Part shown: positions 3,997-25,516 of the stretch, piece after piece | Position numbering within the stretch: the stretch's first letter is position 1 | How the letters are laid out: every line of letters begins with the position of its first letter | Origin: a virus | Length of the DNA stretch: 25,516 nucleotides | Strand: one strand, 5' to 3' | IMG/VR virus record: IMGVR_UViG_3300028610_000630 | Coordinates: 1 to 25,516 of that record | Notes under the pieces: model-generated | What the model saw: the letters and a program-made list of their open reading frames with translations, nothing else | Told to the model about the DNA's origin: nothing | Databases searched by the model: none | Translations under genes and position numbers: made by a program

Positions 3997-5360
3997 GTGA
4001 TTCCTCCTACTGAGCGTTCGTAAGTATAAATTGCATAACGTATTGCATCAGCACAGTGACTAGCGCGATTATGTTCTGGCTTTTGTGATTCGATGTTCCA
4101 AACGCCAGCATCTGCAGACCCCTTCCATTTGTAGTTGCGCAACGCGTAAATTGATTCATGGCATTCATCATGCACGATCAATCTATCATTGTCAATAACG
4201 GCGCCTACCGCGCCGATGCCATCAGTTCTAGACTTAATAGCAGCTATTGTAGATATATCATAAATAGAAGCCAAGTCCCATCTAGTTTGCGCGGCTGCCG
4301 AATCACAAAAAATATATTCCAAGTCCCACTTCTCAACTCGAGCTGATATTTCAGCAGCGTGTTTATCAGTGCCTTTTTCTGCTTGTACGTATTCATCAAG
4401 TATAGAATAGATATTCAAACCATCAGAATCTTCATATACTAGCATTACTACAAGAGCAGTTTGATCTCGGAATCCTAAATCTAATCCGGCTATAATTTCA
4501 TATCTAGCAGGATTAGCAACGATATCGTGAATCATAATTGTAAGGTCTTGAATAGCTGAACCTTTCAATGCCCACACTTGGCCTTCGAACGTTACAAAGT
4601 TAGCCATGTACTCTTGCTCAAATTCTGAGTGAGACATAGTCTTTCTAGCTTGGGCTATATCTTTTTTAGAAGCTCTAGGATTTTCATGGTAATCAGCATG
4701 AATTGATAGCCACTCGGCTAAATCAGGATCAGTTGAGAATCCACGTTGAAAAAACTCTCTAAACCAGTTATCTCCACGTGGTGTAGAGATGAACAAACAT
4801 TTAGAGTTTAATTTATCTAAAGTTGGGCGCAGAGCTACATTGAATGCTTGGCCACCGGCGTCGTTTAACGCAGCTTCATCGAAGATGATAAGATCGTAAC
4901 TTCGCCCAACGGCCGAATCAACTCGACTAACAGAAGCAATCTTAATAAGAGAACCATTTGATAATTCAATAATTCTATCTTTAGCATTGTCTCGTATGCG
5001 TTCGATATCGAACTTGTCAAGTAGCGTGCGTTGTAAGTCCCATGATATACCAGATAAGGCATAATCGGGGCTAATAATAAGCACCGATGCTCCAGGCATA
5101 AGTGCTACGACTTGCAAAATGATATTTGCAATAAAAGTTTTACCTACTCGCCTAGAAACACATGCAGTAATAAATCTATATGAAGGAGAATTAATTGCAT
5201 TAATAATTGCATTTTGTACTCTATTTGGAACTATCGGTTTGTTTTCCGAGTCCGTCAGTAACTTTAAGTAATTCTGTATTGGTACCTTTAGAAATCTTTT
5301 CGACGCCGATAGTTCCACTATGTGGTTTAATTCTAGATTTGGATCCGAAACTTTTAACAT
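3993..5360 (-). CDS. terL: Terminase large subunit
   Basis: A 455-residue packaging motor. The ATPase half has Walker A SRRVGKT (residues 69-75), Walker B LIIFDEA (157-163) and the coupling segment ISTPRGD (191-197). The nuclease half has the acidic triad of the RNase H-like fold: DLGFRDQ (Asp294), FCDSAAAQ (Asp353) and HCADAIRYA (Asp438). It docks on the portal, translocates DNA with ATP and cuts the concatemer. The ATG at 5360 has a GAGAAG ribosome site; this start gives a 140-bp overlap, in another frame, with the upstream 97-residue gene. The residues just after the overlap (PIVPNRVQNAIINAI) look conserved for the family, so the overlap lies only in the variable N terminus. Confidence 0.95.
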   Translation of the reverse strand: MLKVSDPNLELNHIVELSASKRFLKVPIQNYLKLLTDSENKPIVPNRVQNAIINAINSPSYRFITACVSRRVGKTFIANIILQVVALMPGASVLIISPDYALSGISWDLQRTLLDKFDIERIRDNAKDRIIELSNGSLIKIASVSRVDSAVGRSYDLIIFDEAALNDAGGQAFNVALRPTLDKLNSKCLFISTPRGDNWFREFFQRGFSTDPDLAEWLSIHADYHENPRASKKDIAQARKTMSHSEFEQEYMANFVTFEGQVWALKGSAIQDLTIMIHDIVANPARYEIIAGLDLGFRDQTALVVMLVYEDSDGLNIYSILDEYVQAEKGTDKHAAEISARVEKWDLEYIFCDSAAAQTRWDLASIYDISTIAAIKSRTDGIGAVGAVIDNDRLIVHDECHESIYALRNYKWKGSADAGVWNIESQKPEHNRASHCADAIRYAIYTYERSVGGIT

Positions 5361-5514
5361 TTAATAATTCTTCTCTTGTGTATAGTGAGCCAGAGGAATC
5401 TCTAACTACACCATTTTTATAATCTCTCAAAAAATCGAGAGCAGATTTAATCGGCATATCCTGTGCCACAATAACTTCTCTAACTTTGTTCTTTACATAA
5501 CATGTATATAACAT
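5221..5514 (-). CDS. 97-residue protein overlapping the terL start
   Basis: ATG at 5514 overlaps the TAA of the upstream lipoprotein gene (TAATG), so the start is supported by probable translational coupling. The product is mixed and hydrophilic, with a helix (IKSALDFLRDYKNG) and a Ser/Lys-rich tail. Its last 46 codons share DNA with the first codons of terL in another reading frame. No family is recognised. Either the terL start is further in, or this is a real out-of-frame overlap; the coupling start favours a translated gene. Confidence 0.6.
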   Translation of the reverse strand: MLYTCYVKNKVREVIVAQDMPIKSALDFLRDYKNGVVRDSSGSLYTREELLNVKSFGSKSRIKPHSGTIGVEKISKGTNTELLKVTDGLGKQTDSSK

Positions 5515-5774
5515 TAATATATTCCTCGTATTATCTTTTTGGGGTCAACACATTTTGCACTATGCATTTCATGATAAGTAAGAGGATGTGGTATTCTAGA
5601 TATAGTATATTTTCTTATCATCATAGCACCTCCTGCTTTTTTACAACTAGCAGATGCAATAATATATGTATCAACCATTTCATCATAACGTGCTATTTTT
5701 TCATAAGGTGATAGTGTTTGACATCCTCCAATTACAATATTAACTATCAATAAGCTTTTCCATAAGTTTACCAT
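5514..5774 (-). CDS. Small putative lipoprotein
   Basis: I place the start at ATG 5774 rather than the upstream in-frame ATG at 5795, because GGAGAGGG lies at proper spacing before 5774. The 86-residue product begins MVNLWKSLLIVNIVIGGC, a short signal peptide ending in a lipobox-like IGGC, so Cys18 would be lipidated. The mature part has further cysteines (SCKKAGG, KCVDP) and no family I recognise. It overlaps the end of the terminase small subunit gene and its stop is coupled to the next start. A lipoprotein between the two terminase genes is odd. Confidence 0.6.
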   Translation of the reverse strand: MVNLWKSLLIVNIVIGGCQTLSPYEKIARYDEMVDTYIIASASCKKAGGAMMIRKYTISRIPHPLTYHEMHSAKCVDPKKIIRGIY

Positions 5775-6210
5775 AAGAACCCTCTCCGTATACATTAACC
5801 TGAGTATTCTTAGTCAGTCCAACTTCTTTACTAACATCAGCTTGTAATAATTTAGACATATCCATTCTAAATTTATGTGCCATAAGTAGTAAGTCAGCTA
5901 TATCTTTATTAGAACCGATTTCAGCTTCATCAAGCTCTGCCCACTTGCGATCGACTAGATCATCTAGTTTTTCAGCTATTTGTACCATATGACGATATCC
6001 GTGTTCTCTTAATATAGAGTTGACGTAAGTTTTTATAAGTGGTTGTTGTAATACTGCTGCAATTTCATGTGTGGGTACATCTAGTGACTGAGAGCATTCT
6101 TTTATAGAGCATCCATTAGCTAAATAAGTGTTGGCAATTTTTGCTCCGTCAGGACTTATTAATTCTGGGGTAGCATCTTCTGAAAATGGTTGTAGTTGAT
6201 AATCGCTCAT
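5740..6210 (-). CDS. Terminase small subunit (probable)
   Basis: A 156-residue protein immediately upstream of the terL region. Residues about 22-66 form a helix-turn-helix-like unit (IANTYLANGCSIKECSQSLDVPTHEIAAVL) and the rest is predominantly helical with charged heptads (RHMVQIAEKLDDLVDRK), as in small terminases that recognise the packaging site and form a ring around it. The identification rests on this build and on position; the sequence is too divergent to name a family. ATG at 6210 overlaps the previous stop (TAATG). Confidence 0.68.
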   Translation of the reverse strand: MSDYQLQPFSEDATPELISPDGAKIANTYLANGCSIKECSQSLDVPTHEIAAVLQQPLIKTYVNSILREHGYRHMVQIAEKLDDLVDRKWAELDEAEIGSNKDIADLLLMAHKFRMDMSKLLQADVSKEVGLTKNTQVNVYGEGSYGKLMEKLIDS

Positions 6211-6443
6211 TATTCTAATACACTAAATACTCTATTGAAGAAACCTTCTTTAGTTGCTGCTTTCGCTAAAAAATTTGGATTGTCCTCGTCAGCGTCAATG
6301 AGCATAACTTTCTCAGGTATATCCATGGTGCTTTCGATTTTGTAACGTTGAACCCGATTTTTTCGAATATACGTATTACAATCATGCTTTGATCCAGTGA
6401 ACAAAATTTCACCATCAAGCGTTTTAATATTTAATTTTTTCAT
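6210..6443 (-). CDS. 77-residue hypothetical protein, first gene of the head/packaging operon
   Basis: The first gene after the minus-strand promoter, with an AGGAGA ribosome site 9 nt before ATG 6443. The sequence starts with beta-like repeats (LNIKTLDGEILFTGSK) and a basic middle (YIRKNRVQRYKI), then an acidic patch. No family is recognised. Its place before terS would fit a small regulatory or packaging-accessory protein, which is inference only. Confidence 0.65.
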   Translation of the reverse strand: MKKLNIKTLDGEILFTGSKHDCNTYIRKNRVQRYKIESTMDIPEKVMLIDADEDNPNFLAKAATKEGFFNRVFSVLE

Positions 6444-6468
6444 GCGGTAGTTCTCCTATTAATAAGTT

Positions 6469-6497
6469 AGTGTAACACGTCGGGGGCGTCATGTCAA
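6469..6497 (-). promoter_or_regulatory. Sigma70-type promoter of the head/packaging operon
   Basis: On the minus strand: TTGACA (6497-6492), a 17-nt spacer and TACACT (6474-6469), preceded by AGTTC and an A-rich stretch. It lies about 25 nt upstream of ATG 6443 and points at the minus-strand operon. Confidence 0.75.
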
Positions 6498-6619
6498 GAA
6501 CTTTTTTTGTATTAGGTTTATAGTTTGCACCGGAATTGGTTTTTTGAAAAATCATGGTTGTACACGTGTGGGGTAGTCCGTTTATAGGGGCTTAGAACGG
6601 GTCTAATAACCGCCCCCGG

Positions 6620-6663
6620 TTGGCACGATTCTTGCCAATAGGTAATGGCAAATTGCGTGCCAA
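6620..6663. promoter_or_regulatory. Nested dyad, probable operator
   Basis: Outer arms TTGGCACG (6620-6627) and CGTGCCAA (6656-6663) and inner arms TTGCCA (6632-6637) and TGGCAA (6646-6651) share exactly the same centre (6641.5). Such concentric half-sites suggest two dimers of a repressor or activator bound side by side. It lies between the divergent promoters at 6469-6497 and 6704-6735. Confidence 0.6.
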
Positions 6664-6681
6664 TAACCTGGATCGCTTATA

Positions 6682-6735
6682 CCGATTCGGTATATCAAAT
6701 CTATTGACTCGAATCGGAAAATCGTGTTATTGTAT
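6682..6735 (+). promoter_or_regulatory. Promoter with inverted repeat around the -35 box
   Basis: TTGACT (6704-6709) is followed at 17 nt by TTATTG, or with a longer spacer by TTGTAT, in an AT-rich stretch. CCGATTCG (6682-6689) and CGAATCGG (6710-6717) are perfect inverted arms flanking the -35 box, so a bound dimer would cover it. The promoter drives the three-gene cassette beginning at 6760. Confidence 0.6.
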
Positions 6736-6759
6736 CTTTACTGACTCGGGAGAAAAATC

Positions 6760-6963
6760 ATGGCTAGAAAATTATTTACATCAGCTTCACTTTATACCCT
6801 TGAAAATGATATCGTTCACGTTCACGTCGCGTGGATGGACAAGGATTATAATTCTGACTCGCTGAAATTCCTTGCCGAAGGTTATCAACACGCGGTAGAA
6901 TTGCTTGATACGCTCTTCGGTAATTGGACTGACTGCGACCAGTCAATAGCAAGGAGCGCATAA
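6760..6963 (+). CDS. 67-residue hypothetical protein
   Basis: ATG at 6760 has a GGGAG site at good spacing. The protein has a beta-like start (SASLYTLENDIVHVHVAW) and a helix (LKFLAEGYQHAVELLDTLF). No family is recognised. It is the first gene of a three-gene cassette closed by the terminator at 7394. Confidence 0.65.
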   Translation: MARKLFTSASLYTLENDIVHVHVAWMDKDYNSDSLKFLAEGYQHAVELLDTLFGNWTDCDQSIARSA

Positions 6964-7160
6964 TGGGATACTATAAAGACAAGGCAATCGAGCAAGAAGA
7001 ATCCGAGATGGCTTTGGATTTTGACGAACGCAACTACACAGACGGCGGGTACTGGTCAGAACGTGATGCTGAACGTGTAATGGCAGAGCATGACGAACTG
7101 ACTCGAATCGAAAATCAAGCGAAGCTTGAAGACGAACGCCGCACAATTGGAGGATGGTAA
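6963..7160 (+). CDS. 65-residue hydrophilic hypothetical protein
   Basis: ATG at 6963 follows AAGGAG and touches the previous stop. The product is highly charged (DERNYTDGGYWSERDAER, then a KLEDERR tail), helical and without membrane segment. No family is recognised; middle gene of the cassette. Confidence 0.6.
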   Translation: MGYYKDKAIEQEESEMALDFDERNYTDGGYWSERDAERVMAEHDELTRIENQAKLEDERRTIGGW

Positions 7161-7161
7161 A

Positions 7162-7386
7162 ATGAAGAATTTTCTAATCGCAATGGCTTTGATTGTTGGA
7201 CTGCCAAGTTTTTTCATCGGCACATACAAATTGTTCGAGGTGATTGATTGCAACACGGCACAAAAGAATCTACGATTCATTGATGCCTGCATCACAGATG
7301 ATAATTGTAATCTAACAGCACGCGACAGACAGAGCGCAGAAAGCTGGACACGATTAAAATTGGCACGATGCCACTCGAAAGACTAA
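7162..7386 (+). CDS. 74-residue secreted or membrane-anchored Cys-containing protein
   Basis: I start at ATG 7162 because AGGATGG precedes it; an earlier in-frame ATG at 7126 lies deep inside the previous gene. Residues 3-22 are a hydrophobic signal or membrane segment, and the rest has four cysteines (DCNTAQ, DACITDDNC, ARCHS) that could form disulfides in the periplasm. No family is recognised. Confidence 0.6.
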   Translation: MKNFLIAMALIVGLPSFFIGTYKLFEVIDCNTAQKNLRFIDACITDDNCNLTARDRQSAESWTRLKLARCHSKD

Positions 7387-7393
7387 CTCAATA

Positions 7394-7417
7394 GCCCCGC
7401 CGAGGCGGGGCTTTTTT
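7394..7417 (+). terminator. Intrinsic terminator
   Basis: GCCCCGC and GCGGGGC form a stem at 7394-7411 around a short loop, followed by six T residues (7412-7417), 8 nt after the stop at 7386. Confidence 0.9.
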
Positions 7418-7441
7418 CTGTCTGATCCCTGGAACCAGGCA

Positions 7442-7466
7442 AATGCGAATGAGAATCATTCGCATT
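7442..7466. repeat. Family-B palindrome, solitary copy
   Basis: Perfect arms AATGCGAAT and ATTCGCATT around the core GAGAATC. The same palindrome recurs, with core changes, at 9808-9832, 10396-10420 and 12417-12441, and as a half-degraded copy at 8023-8042. This copy is followed directly by GGCGCGCC. Confidence 0.85.
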
Positions 7467-7498
7467 GGCGCGCCATTTTACCATATACACCCCTAGCC

Positions 7499-7549
7499 TG
7501 TCAATACGTATATCTACCTATTGCATATATCGTTTGGTTATGAGACAAT
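7499..7549 (+). promoter_or_regulatory. Shared operator-promoter, copy 1
   Basis: TGTCAATACGTATATCTACC and the following TA lead into a -35 TTGCAT (7521-7526), 17 nt, then GACAAT (7544-7549). The sequence upstream of the -35 box is nearly identical at 9876 and 12494 and contains an inverted repeat of TACCTA type. Confidence 0.6.
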
Positions 7550-7589
7550 CGGGTGTTATGTTAGAAAAATATAATATAAATAGAATAAA

Positions 7590-7604
7590 GGGGTGGGGGG
7601 TGGG
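7590..7604 (+). other. G-run (GGGG-T-GGGGGG-T-GGG)
   Basis: An isolated run of 13 G in 15 nt inside AT-rich flanks, downstream of promoter copy 1 and upstream of the 7659 promoter. It may form a G-quadruplex in RNA or DNA. The stretch 7467-7658 otherwise holds no gene that I can see. Confidence 0.4.
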
Positions 7605-7658
7605 CGCCAGTGAGTGACGGCAGTATTTTGTACGTGTGTTACGTCCGAAAATATGTGC

Positions 7659-7688
7659 TTGACAATTGGTGGTGATTCGTGATAAAAT
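7659..7688 (+). promoter_or_regulatory. Sigma70-type promoter
   Basis: TTGACA (7659-7664), 18 nt, TAAAAT (7683-7688), upstream of the 16-residue leader gene at 7712. Confidence 0.75.
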
Positions 7689-7711
7689 AAATTATTAACT
7701 GGAAGAATAAG

Positions 7712-7762
7712 ATGGATATAAGAGATACCGAAAGAGAACAGACCCTCAAGGAGATAAACTAA
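7712..7762 (+). CDS. 16-residue leader peptide gene
   Basis: ATG at 7712 is preceded by GGAAG at good spacing and encodes MDIRDTEREQTLKEIN. Its TAA overlaps the next ATG (TAATG), and AAGGAG near its end serves the next gene, so it may couple translation to it. Whether the peptide itself matters is unknown. Confidence 0.5.
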   Translation: MDIRDTEREQTLKEIN

Positions 7763-7971
7763 TGCCGAAGAATAGAAAAAGAGTATTACAAAAAGGGGGC
7801 AAAAGCGTGAGCATACGTACCAAACACAAAATTGGTGGGCGTAAGGCTAGCAAAGGCACAAATGAAATGAGCAATACTGAATTGACAGGCTTGTTAAATA
7901 AGGTCAACAAGCGTGATCGTAACAAGCTACGCCGCGCTATACTAGCGCGATTCAAAGATCTCCCAAGCTAG
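7762..7971 (+). CDS. 69-residue highly basic protein
   Basis: ATG at 7762 has AAGGAG 9 nt upstream. The product is rich in Lys and Arg (MPKNRKRVLQKGGK; KVNKRDRNKLRRAILARF) with a C-terminal helix, consistent with a nucleic-acid-binding protein. No family is recognised. It forms a single-gene cassette with its own promoter (7659) and terminator (7992). Confidence 0.65.
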   Translation: MPKNRKRVLQKGGKSVSIRTKHKIGGRKASKGTNEMSNTELTGLLNKVNKRDRNKLRRAILARFKDLPS

Positions 7972-10620: not shown

Positions 10621-10651
10621 TTTACAACGTGCGGAATTTTCGTGCTATACT
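10621..10651 (+). promoter_or_regulatory. Promoter of the HAD/exonuclease cassette
   Basis: TTTACA or TTACAA (10621-10627), 18-19 nt, TATACT (10646-10651). A further TTGACT at 10577-10582 has a poorer -10. Both lie upstream of ATG 10686. Confidence 0.5.
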
Positions 10652-10685
10652 TGGTGGCTGGCACTACTCACAAGAGAATTTGACC

Positions 10686-11162
10686 ATGTTTAAACGCATC
10701 CATACTTATGATCTCGACGGGGTTCTGGTTGATACCGCGCACAGATACCGCAACTTGCCAGACGGTAGCATTGATATGCCCTACTGGAACAAGAACCACA
10801 CCGAAGAAAAAATAGCGCAGGACAAAATTTTGCCGCTGGCAAAACAATTCCTTGCCGACTGTTTAAACCCGGAAACGTATTGCATACTGTGTACTGTTCG
10901 CACAATGCACATACTAGATATTGCGTTTATCGTTGGACGGTTGGGCGCTCCCGACAATTTGCTTATGGTGGGTGAACCCCGCCCGCCATATTCGCTCGAC
11001 TACATTTTAAAACGTCGCGCACTAACCCGCATTTTTAATTTGCGGCAATTTTCTAAGCTACCGAAAAAACTTTGGGAGGATAACATTCGCAACATTGAAA
11101 ACCTACAAAACCTTTTTGATCGTTGCTACTATGTCCCGTCACGCATCACCGCAAGGAATTAA
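10686..11162 (+). CDS. HAD-superfamily phosphatase (nucleotidase-like)
   Basis: A 158-residue protein beginning MFKRIHTYDLDGVLVDT. DLDGVLVD is HAD motif I, with Asp9 the nucleophile and Asp11 the acid/base. CILCTVRT (about 67-74) suits motif II, whose Thr binds phosphate. A basic helix region and ED/DN residues (LWEDNIRNI) may supply motifs III and IV. Small phage HAD proteins of this size include 5'(3')-deoxyribonucleotidases and 3'-phosphatases; the substrate cannot be read from the sequence. Upstream in-frame starts lie between the promoter and this ATG and are not favoured. The DnaQ-like exonuclease follows after 4 bp. Confidence 0.78.
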   Translation: MFKRIHTYDLDGVLVDTAHRYRNLPDGSIDMPYWNKNHTEEKIAQDKILPLAKQFLADCLNPETYCILCTVRTMHILDIAFIVGRLGAPDNLLMVGEPRPPYSLDYILKRRALTRIFNLRQFSKLPKKLWEDNIRNIENLQNLFDRCYYVPSRITARN

Positions 11163-11166
11163 AACG

Positions 11167-11889
11167 ATGAGACAAAAAACTTTTTTGGTAATGGATACTG
11201 AAACTACGGGCATTGCGTCAAAGGCTATGGTTTTCGACTTTGCATATGTGATTGCCACGCGTACCAAAATTTTGTGCGAGCGCAAATTTTTAATACGCGA
11301 AATTCTAACTAACCCACGCGTGATGTTAGGCGCGCTTTACGATAGAACATGGCGCGATATGATGGGGGGTAAACTGTTTCATCATTACATACCCGGCTTG
11401 CATAGCGGCGAACTAGAATTATTTGGCTGGCGCGATGCGTTACAAATTATGCGCGATGACGTTTTGACTTTCGGCGTTGATGTTATATGCGCGTATAACC
11501 TGCCATTCGATTTGGGCGCGTTAAACAAAACGCATCAACGTATCACCGAAAAGAATATTAACCTTTCGCGTTTTGACTTGTTATGCCTTTGGGAATTTTC
11601 CTGCTCGACTGTTTGCAAGGAAGCGTTATATCATCAAGTAGCGCGACAGCAGGGACAAGCGACCGGATGGATTACACCGGCCAACAACGTACGAACTAAC
11701 GCGGAGAAAGTTTACGCATTCTTATCCGGTGATTTGAATTTTGTGGAATCGCATACTGCGTTAGAGGATGCACAAATCGAAACCGAAATTTTGCAACGCC
11801 TGTTAGCAAAACGCAAAACGATCCCGTACAATGTGCTAGATCATATGCCGTGGCGCAAGGCGCAGCAAATCAACGGTCAGATGTTTTGA
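11167..11889 (+). CDS. DnaQ-like 3'-5' exonuclease (DEDDh family)
   Basis: A 240-residue protein starting at ATG 11167 with AAGGA at good spacing. ExoI is VMDTETTG (Asp10, Glu12), ExoII is AYNLPFDLGAL (Asp115) and ExoIII is SHTALEDAQIE (His196, Asp201), the complete DEDDh set. Such enzymes remove nucleotides from 3' ends by a two-metal mechanism, as in proofreading (DnaQ) or RNase T/oligoribonuclease-like RNA trimming. No polymerase domain is attached. With the adjacent HAD phosphatase it suggests salvage or end-processing of nucleic acids. The long insert between ExoI and ExoII (about 45-100) is lineage-specific. Confidence 0.9.
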   Translation: MRQKTFLVMDTETTGIASKAMVFDFAYVIATRTKILCERKFLIREILTNPRVMLGALYDRTWRDMMGGKLFHHYIPGLHSGELELFGWRDALQIMRDDVLTFGVDVICAYNLPFDLGALNKTHQRITEKNINLSRFDLLCLWEFSCSTVCKEALYHQVARQQGQATGWITPANNVRTNAEKVYAFLSGDLNFVESHTALEDAQIETEILQRLLAKRKTIPYNVLDHMPWRKAQQINGQMF

Positions 11890-11912
11890 CCATCACCCAA
11901 GAGGAAAAGAAA

Positions 11913-12299
11913 ATGACCGAAACAAAGGTAAACTACGATGATGAAACCACGACCAAAATCGTGGAAGCGTACAAGATTGGCGAATCCGATGATCAGCGTA
12001 AAGCAATTCTGGAAACGCTGTCAGCGGAGACTGGTAAGACAGTCAAAAGCCTGCGCGCTAAACTGGTCCGGGAGGGTGTGTACGTTAAACAGACGTACAA
12101 GACCAAGACCGGCGCGAAAGCGGAAACCAAGGAAACGATTGTCGAATCAATCGCTGTTCTGATGGATGTTACCGCAGAGCAACTTGGCGGATTGGAGAAA
12201 GCAACGAAACCCGCGCTGCTGAGAATCCGTAAGCAATTCCGGGGTGCTTACGCCGCACTTGCTGGCGAAGATGAGGCGGGAGAGGAAGCGGCAGAATAG
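11913..12299 (+). CDS. Small paralogous protein P1, probable nucleic-acid binding
   Basis: I start at ATG 11913, which follows GAGGAAAAG; an earlier frame opening at 11850 overlaps the exonuclease. The 128-residue product has an N-terminal helical unit (VNYDDETTTKIVEAY...ILETLSAETGKTVKSLRAKL) that looks like a helix-turn-helix ending in the phrase KSLRAKLVREGVYV, then a Lys-rich linker, a second helical unit (ETIVESIAVLMDVTAEQLGG) and LEKATKPALLRI. The same order is found in the products at 12890 (plus) and 13782 (minus). The pattern suggests a sequence-specific DNA-binding protein, which is inferred. Confidence 0.75.
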   Translation: MTETKVNYDDETTTKIVEAYKIGESDDQRKAILETLSAETGKTVKSLRAKLVREGVYVKQTYKTKTGAKAETKETIVESIAVLMDVTAEQLGGLEKATKPALLRIRKQFRGAYAALAGEDEAGEEAAE

Positions 12300-23719: not shown

Positions 23720-23815
23720 ATGATTGATCCCTCAATACTTAATTGGTCGGTTGTTATTTTTATATTTCTAACTACATGGTTGTTAGTAACTATGGGAGAT
23801 ACTGACGGTAAATAG
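23720..23815 (+). CDS. 31-residue single-span membrane protein
   Basis: GAGGAGG lies 10 nt before ATG 23720. The product MIDPSILNWS plus a hydrophobic helix and GDTDGK tail has two promoters of its own. No family is recognised. Confidence 0.5.
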   Translation: MIDPSILNWSVVIFIFLTTWLLVTMGDTDGK

Positions 23816-23836
23816 TTAGCAATGGAAAAATAATTC

Positions 23837-23865
23837 TTGACAATACGGTGAAAATTTCGTATAAT
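23837..23865 (+). promoter_or_regulatory. Consensus promoter of structured RNA C
   Basis: TTGACA (23837-23842), 17 nt, TATAAT (23860-23865): perfect boxes, preceded by TAATTC as in several other promoters here. Confidence 0.88.
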
Positions 23866-23871
23866 ATAGAT

Positions 23872-24410
23872 ATAAATTTTAATAACCCGCGAACAAATGA
23901 AATCCTCTTGGGAGAGTGTTATTAGTAACGGGTTTAGTCTGCGGATATTAGACTTAAATTCAAGTATGCCCCGCCTGATAAGCGTAAGAACTATCACAGT
24001 TTTCCGCCGCTGAGTGGCGGGTTCTATAAATAACCAGCAGGCGCTTGTATGCCAAGCGATGAAATAATAGGCATGGGTTCATTAGCTTCATGATACTATA
24101 ACCCCGGACTAATAGGTAGAGAGCGACGGCATTCTGCTTTACCGAAAAATAGAAAGCGGTAGATACTGATTATTAGATTAATGTATCGTCAGGTGTCGGA
24201 GTCATACGTTCCCCTTGGCGTCATTGCCAGACGTAAAAGGCAAATCTAATCCACGATGAAGAGTTGTTAGTGTTAGATTAGTAAAGGATATAAGGGCTTT
24301 GATAGGGGTCTTATACCGGACTTAGAAGCAACTAGTATTTTAAGGTAAACAACCACCGGAAATGCCAGTTAAACTATTCGTCCGCCCCACGACACGGGGC
24401 ATTTATAATC
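23872..24410 (+). ncRNA. Large structured non-coding RNA C, about 540 nt
   Basis: From a consensus promoter to a GCCCC/GGGGC hairpin (24384-24400) there is no credible gene on the plus strand, but pairing is dense. Examples are 23884-23889 with 23929-23934, 23936-23940 with 23950-23954, 23972-23977 with 24038-24043 enclosing 23987-23991 with 24021-24025 and 24004-24008 with 24016-24020, and 24243-24249 with 24273-24279. The final hairpin has a poor T-run, so the 3' end is estimated. Size, phage setting and multibranch layout recall ornate phage RNAs such as ROOL or GOLLD, but I cannot match conserved sequence to either. Confidence 0.72.
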
Positions 24411-24437
24411 AAACATATTCATAGAGTATTTTTAATT

Positions 24438-24632
24438 ATGGACAAAGAAAAAGAAGATCAACCAAAGGATTATGTAGAATTTGCAGATTTTCTTAGGGAC
24501 GAATATAGTTTTTTAACTTGGAATCAAAAGATTTTATATCGTTTGCAAAACCATGTAATCAAGGTAATACTATTTGTTTTTATGGCAGGAATTTTTACTG
24601 GAGCTTATTTAGATAAGTTTCAAATATTATAA
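24438..24632 (+). CDS. 64-residue protein with C-terminal membrane anchor
   Basis: ATG 24438 begins a hydrophilic acidic N terminus (MDKEKEDQPKDYVEFADF), a helical middle and one membrane span at about 43-58 (VILFVFMAGIFTGAYL). It lies between two large RNAs. No family is recognised; no strong ribosome site is visible. Confidence 0.5.
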   Translation: MDKEKEDQPKDYVEFADFLRDEYSFLTWNQKILYRLQNHVIKVILFVFMAGIFTGAYLDKFQIL

Positions 24633-24639
24633 GGTTTTG

Positions 24640-25516
24640 GCTCAGAGGTAACGTGCTGCAGCGGTTGTGCTTAACAACCTTAAAGTCGGGTTAAATTATA
24701 TGGATAAACTAATATGATGGGAATTAAGGGCTGTTTGGAGTCCTGGCTTCGGCCGCAGATAATCTAGGGCGACCTAGAAAAAGGAAGAGATTATTCATAT
24801 CTTCCACCAGGTGACTGGCCTATCTAAGCAAGCTAATGTGCCCTAACCCCTACGTGGGTTGCTTCAATCATTATAGGTTGGAGATAAGGTCTACACAGTA
24901 GAGGAGATAACTGGATTCGCTGCCCTTTCGGGGGATAACCAAGGTCTGGGAACTAACAGGTTGTGCTGAGTGAAGCCTTTAACAAAGCTGTTACACTGTA
25001 AGGTAAATTAGTAATATAGCAAGTCCAAGAAAGTAATCGAGGGCGGCTATGTAATATCAACGAGAACGGTGCAATGCCTAGTAACGTGAAGTATAGCTGA
25101 GTATCTGACAAGAGAAAGGTATCGGACGGGTTGTATTTTGTAGCTCAAAAAGGTTGCGAATCAACAGAGGTAGCTCGTTTGTGGATAAATGGTTAATTTT
25201 AAGTGATTACGCAGGTTCGAATCCTGCCGGGATCGCCAAAATAACATTAGTGTGAAAGGAAACATAATTTATAGTCTCCGTCTAGTGTTATTCTGATGAT
25301 CCCGTAGCTGAGTCAGGTTTAGCAATTTCATGTCTAGGAATAAACATCGTAAATGATAACATAACTTAATGCAAAGACTACCTCGGTACGATAGTGAAAA
25401 TAGCTTAAACCTGAACTCACTTAGGTGGGAATTCAGGGTCGGACAGCTCGCAAGGCTAGAAGGTTTGATGGAAAGTCGCACGTAAGGGATTAGCGTCCTT
25501 GTACAGCTCTGATTAA
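24640..25516 (+). ncRNA. Very large structured non-coding RNA D, continues past the right edge
   Basis: No credible gene lies from 24640 to the window end. Clear hairpins include 24663-24668 with 24674-24679, CTAGG-GCGA-CCTAG with a GNRA loop (24764-24777), a UUCG hairpin near 24745-24755, 24826-24831 with 24859-24864 enclosing 24845-24849 with 24856-24860, and 25240-25250 with 25282-25292. The stretch contains a tRNA-like module in permuted order (25211-25341). Its 5' end is not marked by a promoter and may be processed from a longer transcript. Phage-borne GOLLD RNA, which is often associated with tRNA genes, is the nearest known analogue in size and setting; identity is not established. 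Confidence 0.7.
25211..25341 (+). tRNA. Circularly permuted tRNA-like module (Asp-like anticodon), embedded in RNA D
   Basis: The upstream part is a perfect T-arm (GCAGG 25211-25215, loop TTCGAAT, CCTGC 25223-25227), acceptor strand CGGGATC (25228-25234), discriminator G and encoded CCA (25236-25238). The downstream part is GATCCCG (25298-25304), an exact 7-bp match to that acceptor strand, then TA, a D-arm-like GCTGAGTCAGGTTTAGC, then a 5-bp stem (25325-25329 with 25337-25341, one G-U) around loop ATGTCTA with U33 and anticodon GTC. G73 and GUC are both Asp features. An 11-bp stem (25240-25250 with 25282-25292) closes the insert joining CCA to the 5' end. Against it, the D-arm segment can pair with 25403-25417 instead, and position 37 is T. 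Confidence 0.5.

Follow-up and report, generated by a model that had tools for sequence, protein, structure and literature searches.

The locus considered here raises the question of why a large phage RNA should carry a tRNA-like module whose two halves stand in reversed order, and whether that module is a working part of the RNA, a tRNA to be released from it, or the remains of older tRNAs. The whole stretch of DNA that was analyzed, referred to as the window, is a 25.5-kb phage fragment (25,516 nucleotides) with portal and large terminase genes, and non-coding RNA occupies its last kilobase. A prior reading of the letters without database searches (the sequence-only reading) had described the module, at 25211-25341, within what was taken to be a giant phage RNA. 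Coordinates refer to the window unless a contig is named, and all features of the RNA lie on the plus strand.

A Divergent GOLLD as Host

With cmscan, the Rfam model of GOLLD (RF02032) matches 25123-25516 at 48.3 bits (E 3.7e-11), the 3′ part being cut off where the window ends. In sister contigs the RNA extends about 186 nt beyond this point, and a complete copy (L103, L151, and L152) matches the model of the conserved 3′ region over its full length (model positions 1-416, 100.2 bits, E 2.9e-26 to 5e-29), which bears out the giant phage RNA proposed as host. In L103 the entire GOLLD spans about 4315-5384. The Rfam gathering cut-off for GOLLD is 150 bits, a curator's threshold rather than an anatomical feature, and it is reached neither by the window's RNA at 100.2 bits nor by a second GOLLD discussed below, L556, at 135 bits. 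The window's RNA is therefore named a divergent GOLLD. The stretch at 24633-25122, which is non-coding and runs from the end of a 64-aa ORF (24438-24632) up to the Rfam match, is probably the 5′ region of GOLLD, its less conserved domain. As in other GOLLDs, the RNA is phage-encoded, given the portal and terminase genes, and close to tRNA genes, with tRNAs for Met, Ala, Thr, and Lys downstream of it in sister contig L103.

The GOLLD core, GCAAAGACTACCTC (25371-25384), was located by an alignment of 27 GOLLD cores, in which GCAAAGACT of the window's RNA aligns with the 26 others. The last seven bases of the core (CTACCTC, 25378-25384) close the linker by pairing at seven of seven positions with GAGGTAG (25167-25173), so that both the core motif and the closing helix of GOLLD are present. 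RF02032 places the whole module in an unstructured insert of its own; membership of the T-arm in another helix of the family model, which the sequence-only reading had named as an outcome that would speak against permutation, was thus not seen. A conserved GOLLD hairpin at 25410-25437 (25410-25418 with 25423-25437) is kept with compensated pairs across the 27 aligned sequences. Because of this hairpin, a competing pairing of the D-arm segment raised earlier (25311-25323 with 25403-25417) is disfavored, since its partner strand belongs to the covarying hairpin. Cryo-EM of another GOLLD has revealed an RNA cage of 14 subunits with the linker inside (PMC12286853), and a cage with an interior linker may be carried over to the window's RNA by analogy with that structure.

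Anatomy of the Permuted Module

Read from 5′ to 3′, the module (25211-25341) consists of a T-arm, the acceptor 3′ strand, G73, CCA, a spacer, the acceptor 5′ strand, the dinucleotide TA, a D-arm, and an anticodon arm. The T-arm (GCAGG-TTCGAAT-CCTGC, 25211-25227), which was recognized by sequence, scanner, and fold, is followed by the acceptor 3′ strand CGGGATC (25228-25234). This strand is the exact complement of the acceptor 5′ strand GATCCCG (25298-25304), giving the seven of seven Watson-Crick pairs claimed at the outset. G73 (25235) and CCA (25236-25238) are encoded next, and the spacer that follows (25239-25297) measures 59 nt rather than the 60 nt first reported. The 11-bp helix said to bridge the two halves is present within this spacer in both the sequence and the minimum free energy (MFE) structure, with AATAACATTAG (25240-25250) pairing with CTAGTGTTATT (25282-25292) through one T.G pair. 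The D-arm (GCTG-AGTCAGGTT-TAGC, 25307-25323) was found by the scanner and in the fold, and the anticodon arm (ATTTC-ATGTCTA-GGAAT, anticodon GTC, 25325-25341) by these and by ARAGORN after the halves had been rejoined. The anticodon loop departs somewhat from the canonical form, with U at position 37 and A at position 32, which is atypical of a translating tRNA.

Both the MFE and the centroid structure of 25205-25345 consist of exactly the arms of the module at −40.1 kcal/mol, with a stability z-score of −3.58 and none of 200 shuffles equally stable. The wider linker (25180-25372) has modest stability (z −1.81), and its MFE structure includes a possible inner closing stem between TTAAGT (25198-25203) and ACTTAA just 5′ of the GOLLD core, which is weak, confined to one lineage, and missing from the centroid. 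In the unprocessed fold, the discriminator base can pair with base −1 (G.U in the window, T-A in L556), and CCA sits in a helix or an internal loop. As modeled, these features may be an obstacle to RNase P or to synthetases.

The permuted order scored 33 for the module, against a best score of 23 when the entire window was dinucleotide-shuffled 300 times and both strands were scored, so the order read directly from the sequence was confirmed. A normal-order tRNA, the other outcome named in advance as adverse, was detected by ARAGORN nowhere in the window; the scanner found no normal-order partner for the halves of the module, and Rfam at gathering thresholds reported nothing in the window. The check proposed by the sequence-only reading, in which the halves are rejoined in normal order, yielded a complete tRNA. 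ARAGORN called one in 181 of 192 joins, 143 of them as Asp-GTC and always with the start at G1, compared with 7 of 3000 when the D-half was shuffled and 171 of 3000 when the acceptor strand alone was kept.

Permuted tRNA genes, which also place the 3′ half first, occur in algae and an archaeon, where free tRNAs are produced through splicing at bulge-helix-bulge sites (PMC3978253). Given this precedent and the rejoined reading as tRNA-Asp(GTC), the module could be cut out of the GOLLD transcript, its halves ligated into a circle, and the spacer removed to yield a free tRNA-Asp. Such a fate is very unlikely here, as the cuts would destroy the GOLLD, the anticodon loop has U37 and A32, and the module is embedded in another structured RNA with no ligase found. 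In particular, RtcB was not detected in the five phage records searched, which are fragments, and no RNA ligase appeared when 50 proteins of a 53-kb sister contig, likewise a fragment, were compared with Pfam.

The Linker Domain across the GOLLD Family

Pattern scans and profile searches together gave a set of 45 distinct GOLLDs. The linker contains a normal-order tRNA-like domain in 33 of these, lacks a T-arm in seven, is truncated in three, and is permuted in two, the last number not being an estimate of frequency, as L556 came from a pattern that required a distant T-arm. Of 42 intact GOLLDs, 41 have their linker closed by a covarying 7-bp helix, which occurs in 18 sequence versions. The 33 normal-order domains lie near the core, and the T-arm lies far upstream in the two permuted linkers. 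Those normal-order domains that could be measured have three to five inner acceptor pairs, with the outer two mostly unpaired and CCA mostly absent, and anticodon loops are variable.

A tRNA-like domain in the GOLLD linker had already been published (PMC12286853, PMC6582537), and some of these domains carry a tRNA gene annotation in phage records. The novelty claimed by the sequence-only reading thus holds for the permuted order and not for the presence of a tRNA-like domain. The GOLLDs with a normal-order tRNA, such as those of Caulobacter phages phiCbK and Magneto, Mesorhizobium phage Cp1R7A-A1, and mycobacterial examples, share with the module its family (RF02032), linker, and closing helix. 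They usually possess an acceptor of 3-5 bp and no CCA, in contrast to the swapped halves, complete acceptor, encoded CCA, and extra spacer helix of the module. The window's RNA had no match in the INPHARED phages searched, and all related GOLLDs inspected in that collection (Caulobacter, Mesorhizobium, Mycobacterium, and Sinorhizobium) have the normal order. An unannotated GOLLD whose linker tRNA-like domain has the normal order was also observed at about 1030-1505 of L654 (Sinorhizobium phage Phosso), a cultured jumbo phage that makes it a convenient laboratory comparator.

A Second Permuted GOLLD

The other permuted linker belongs to L556, which is located on a 185-kb phage contig and matches GOLLD with an E-value of 1.6e-36. 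Its T-arm stem is ATGGG/CCCAT and its acceptor CGCCCGC/GCGGGTG, with seven of seven pairs including one G.U, followed by TCCA. A 49-nt spacer then forms a helix of its own, similar in length to that of the window and different in sequence, before the D-arm and the anticodon arm. When the halves were rejoined, a tRNA was called in 193 of 234 joins, chiefly as Ser(TGA). Judged by its sequence, L556 is an independent phage RNA with an identical plan and other arm sequences.

The close relatives offer no variation in the acceptor, as L086 and L103 match the window at every one of 886 shared bases. L556 differs from the window on both sides of acceptor pairs 2-5, four double-compensated pairs, and of three T-stem pairs, with pairing kept. 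As the permuted order occurs in just two lineages among the 45 GOLLDs, this covariation is a two-sequence comparison to which no statistic is attached. Compensated pairs would separate any two tRNAs, and the telling point is that the halves still pair in permuted order. The closer relatives identified by terminase (G002-G008, 60-80% identical) have no GOLLD match and therefore supply no covariation set.

The recurrence bears on whether the arrangement is a relic. A permuted order arises most simply by tandem duplication, and a single normal-order copy is present in most GOLLD linkers. If two tandem linker tRNAs had lost, respectively, the 5′ half of the first and the 3′ half of the second, functionless fragments would remain that look permuted, and the atypical anticodon loop would fit such decay. 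This history is nonetheless quite improbable, considering that all four arms are intact, the acceptor pairs at seven of seven positions, the halves are connected by an additional 11-bp helix, shuffled sequences fold much less stably, and an unrelated GOLLD has the same arrangement, spacer helix included. By sequence, chance or decay would have had to produce this arrangement twice, sparing every arm and the spacer helix each time.

Comparison with Known Permuted RNAs

A scan over all loci gave 1105 distinct sites with a T-half plus CCA and 11 permuted candidates for which no normal-order partner was present. These candidates include YrlA-like arrays and a permuted tmRNA, which shows that the scan detects RNAs already known to be permuted. 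YrlA and permuted tmRNA are also the closest permuted tRNA mimics so far described, and the module is a member of neither. YrlA, a bacterial Y RNA (RF02553), is a circular permutation relative to tRNA (PMC11472068) and mimics the structure of tRNA while tethered to a longer RNA (PMC8394870). Such a use of the permuted tRNA fold as a mimic was not mentioned by the sequence-only reading among known permuted relatives. The module has the same circular order of T-arm, acceptor stem, and D-arm in one chain, whereas it differs from YrlA in its GOLLD host instead of an Rsr-binding stem, its 59-nt spacer, its encoded CCA, and its added anticodon hairpin. The Rfam model of YrlA, which includes the basal Rsr-binding stem, gave no match to the window's RNA up to E 10.

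Tandem permuted tRNA-like arrays with CCA and loops of 4-6 nt were observed in phage contigs L118 (5242-5852, minus strand), L124 (3822-4381), and L119 (about 4086, reverse complement). Though these arrays were first suspected to be permuted introns, L118 matches YrlA instead, in three copies of 36.5-37.5 bits, below the cut-off of 69. For the module itself, no Rfam intron match was obtained in 23800-25516. Of the three options offered earlier, a permuted intron-exon arrangement is accordingly dropped, and a tRNA mimic on a larger RNA and a processed form survive. A permuted tRNA-like RNA is also possible at 859-919 of L656 (Vibrio phage D497), where 25 nt separate a T-half with GCCA from a complementary acceptor strand and D-half downstream, with no GOLLD match.

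The permuted tmRNA (RF04321) has the same succession of T-arm, acceptor 3′ strand, CCA, intervening segment, and acceptor 5′ strand, and the module differs in having a canonical D-arm and an anticodon arm. Its model, which includes the tag region, scored 16.7 bits on 23800-25516 (E 0.87, below the cut-off of 47), compared with 78.4 bits for the positive control L610, whose positions 2319-2617 hold a permuted tmRNA in an IMG/VR contig. In the 16.7-bit alignment, which is not significant, the model aligns the T-arm, spacer, and acceptor strand of the module. This layout leaves a small chance for a chargeable form in two pieces, as does the presence in each permuted GOLLD of G1-C72, an encoded CCA, and a complete minihelix of acceptor and T arms. 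Host RNase P would cut before G1 and exonucleases would trim the spacer to CCA, after which the acceptor stem would hold the two GOLLD strands together, much as in permuted tmRNA, and the aminoacylated end would lie inside or on the cage. Against this stand the pair that bases 73 and −1 may form, the long spacer helix, and the absence of the features for charging from most GOLLD linker domains. The extended proposal, in which some GOLLD cages would contain a covalently tethered chargeable tRNA, cut into two pieces by RNase P, with its aminoacylated end in the interior to trap or meter a translation component, is rather doubtful.

A Probable Tethered tRNA Mimic

The module is thus a circularly permuted tRNA-like domain that occupies the linker of a phage GOLLD, where it probably serves as a tethered tRNA mimic, the most economical reading. 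From the observed order, pairing potential, linker position, and recurrence in a second phage, we infer the three-dimensional fold, the cage, a binding partner, and any processing. The conserved 7-bp helix ties off the linker. The normal-order domain of most GOLLDs with a tRNA-like linker, which has a short acceptor stem and no CCA, would hang on the cage by its acceptor end. The permuted domain would instead hang by the variable-loop and anticodon side, making the acceptor and T arms, with the full 7-bp stem and encoded CCA, the distal free end. Still attached, the mimic would then present the surface of a tRNA to a protein recognizing either the T/acceptor half or the elbow of the D and T arms, candidates being a modifying enzyme, RNase P, a nuclease, EF-Tu, or a synthetase.

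The permuted linkers of two unrelated phages suggest that the tRNA shape remains part of the cage RNA, leaving its amino-acid end free, and is not released as an ordinary tRNA. In both phages the linker tRNA is rearranged such that the acceptor end, not the anticodon end, would face away from the cage. This suggests that the tRNA shape itself is selected and that its mode of attachment can change, and it leads to a testable prediction as to which end a partner must reach. GOLLD would thereby be a further setting, after Y RNAs and permuted tmRNA, for a circularly permuted tRNA fold within a larger RNA.

Genomic Surroundings

HMM searches gave no GOLLD match among the loci retrieved by a pattern scan of genome contigs, and none of 149 Lactobacillales genomes had one, a negative of no weight, since the control genomes had none either. 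Elsewhere in the window, at 23837-24400, a sigma-70-like promoter (TTGACA at 23837-23842, a gap of 17 nt, and TATAAT at 23860-23865) precedes an apparently structured non-coding stretch that has no convincing Rfam match. A PAS-domain protein is encoded at 2315-2896, adjoining the phage portal gene. Alternative genetic codes made the reading of the gene-poor stretch at 7-13.5 kb no clearer. At 10629-12299, ORFs overlap in different frames, one of them weakly resembling a DNA polymerase exonuclease subunit, and sister contig L502 has a similar set of ORFs at 6177-7844. The tRNA array of L103 also includes non-tRNA elements with a tRNA-like start and end (5585-5660, 6157-6250, 6479-6584, and 7460-7554), each with a 7-bp acceptor-like stem and then G and CCA. 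Counting the real tRNAs, 11 such stems were observed, compared with 2.0 expected and at most six in 100 shuffles.
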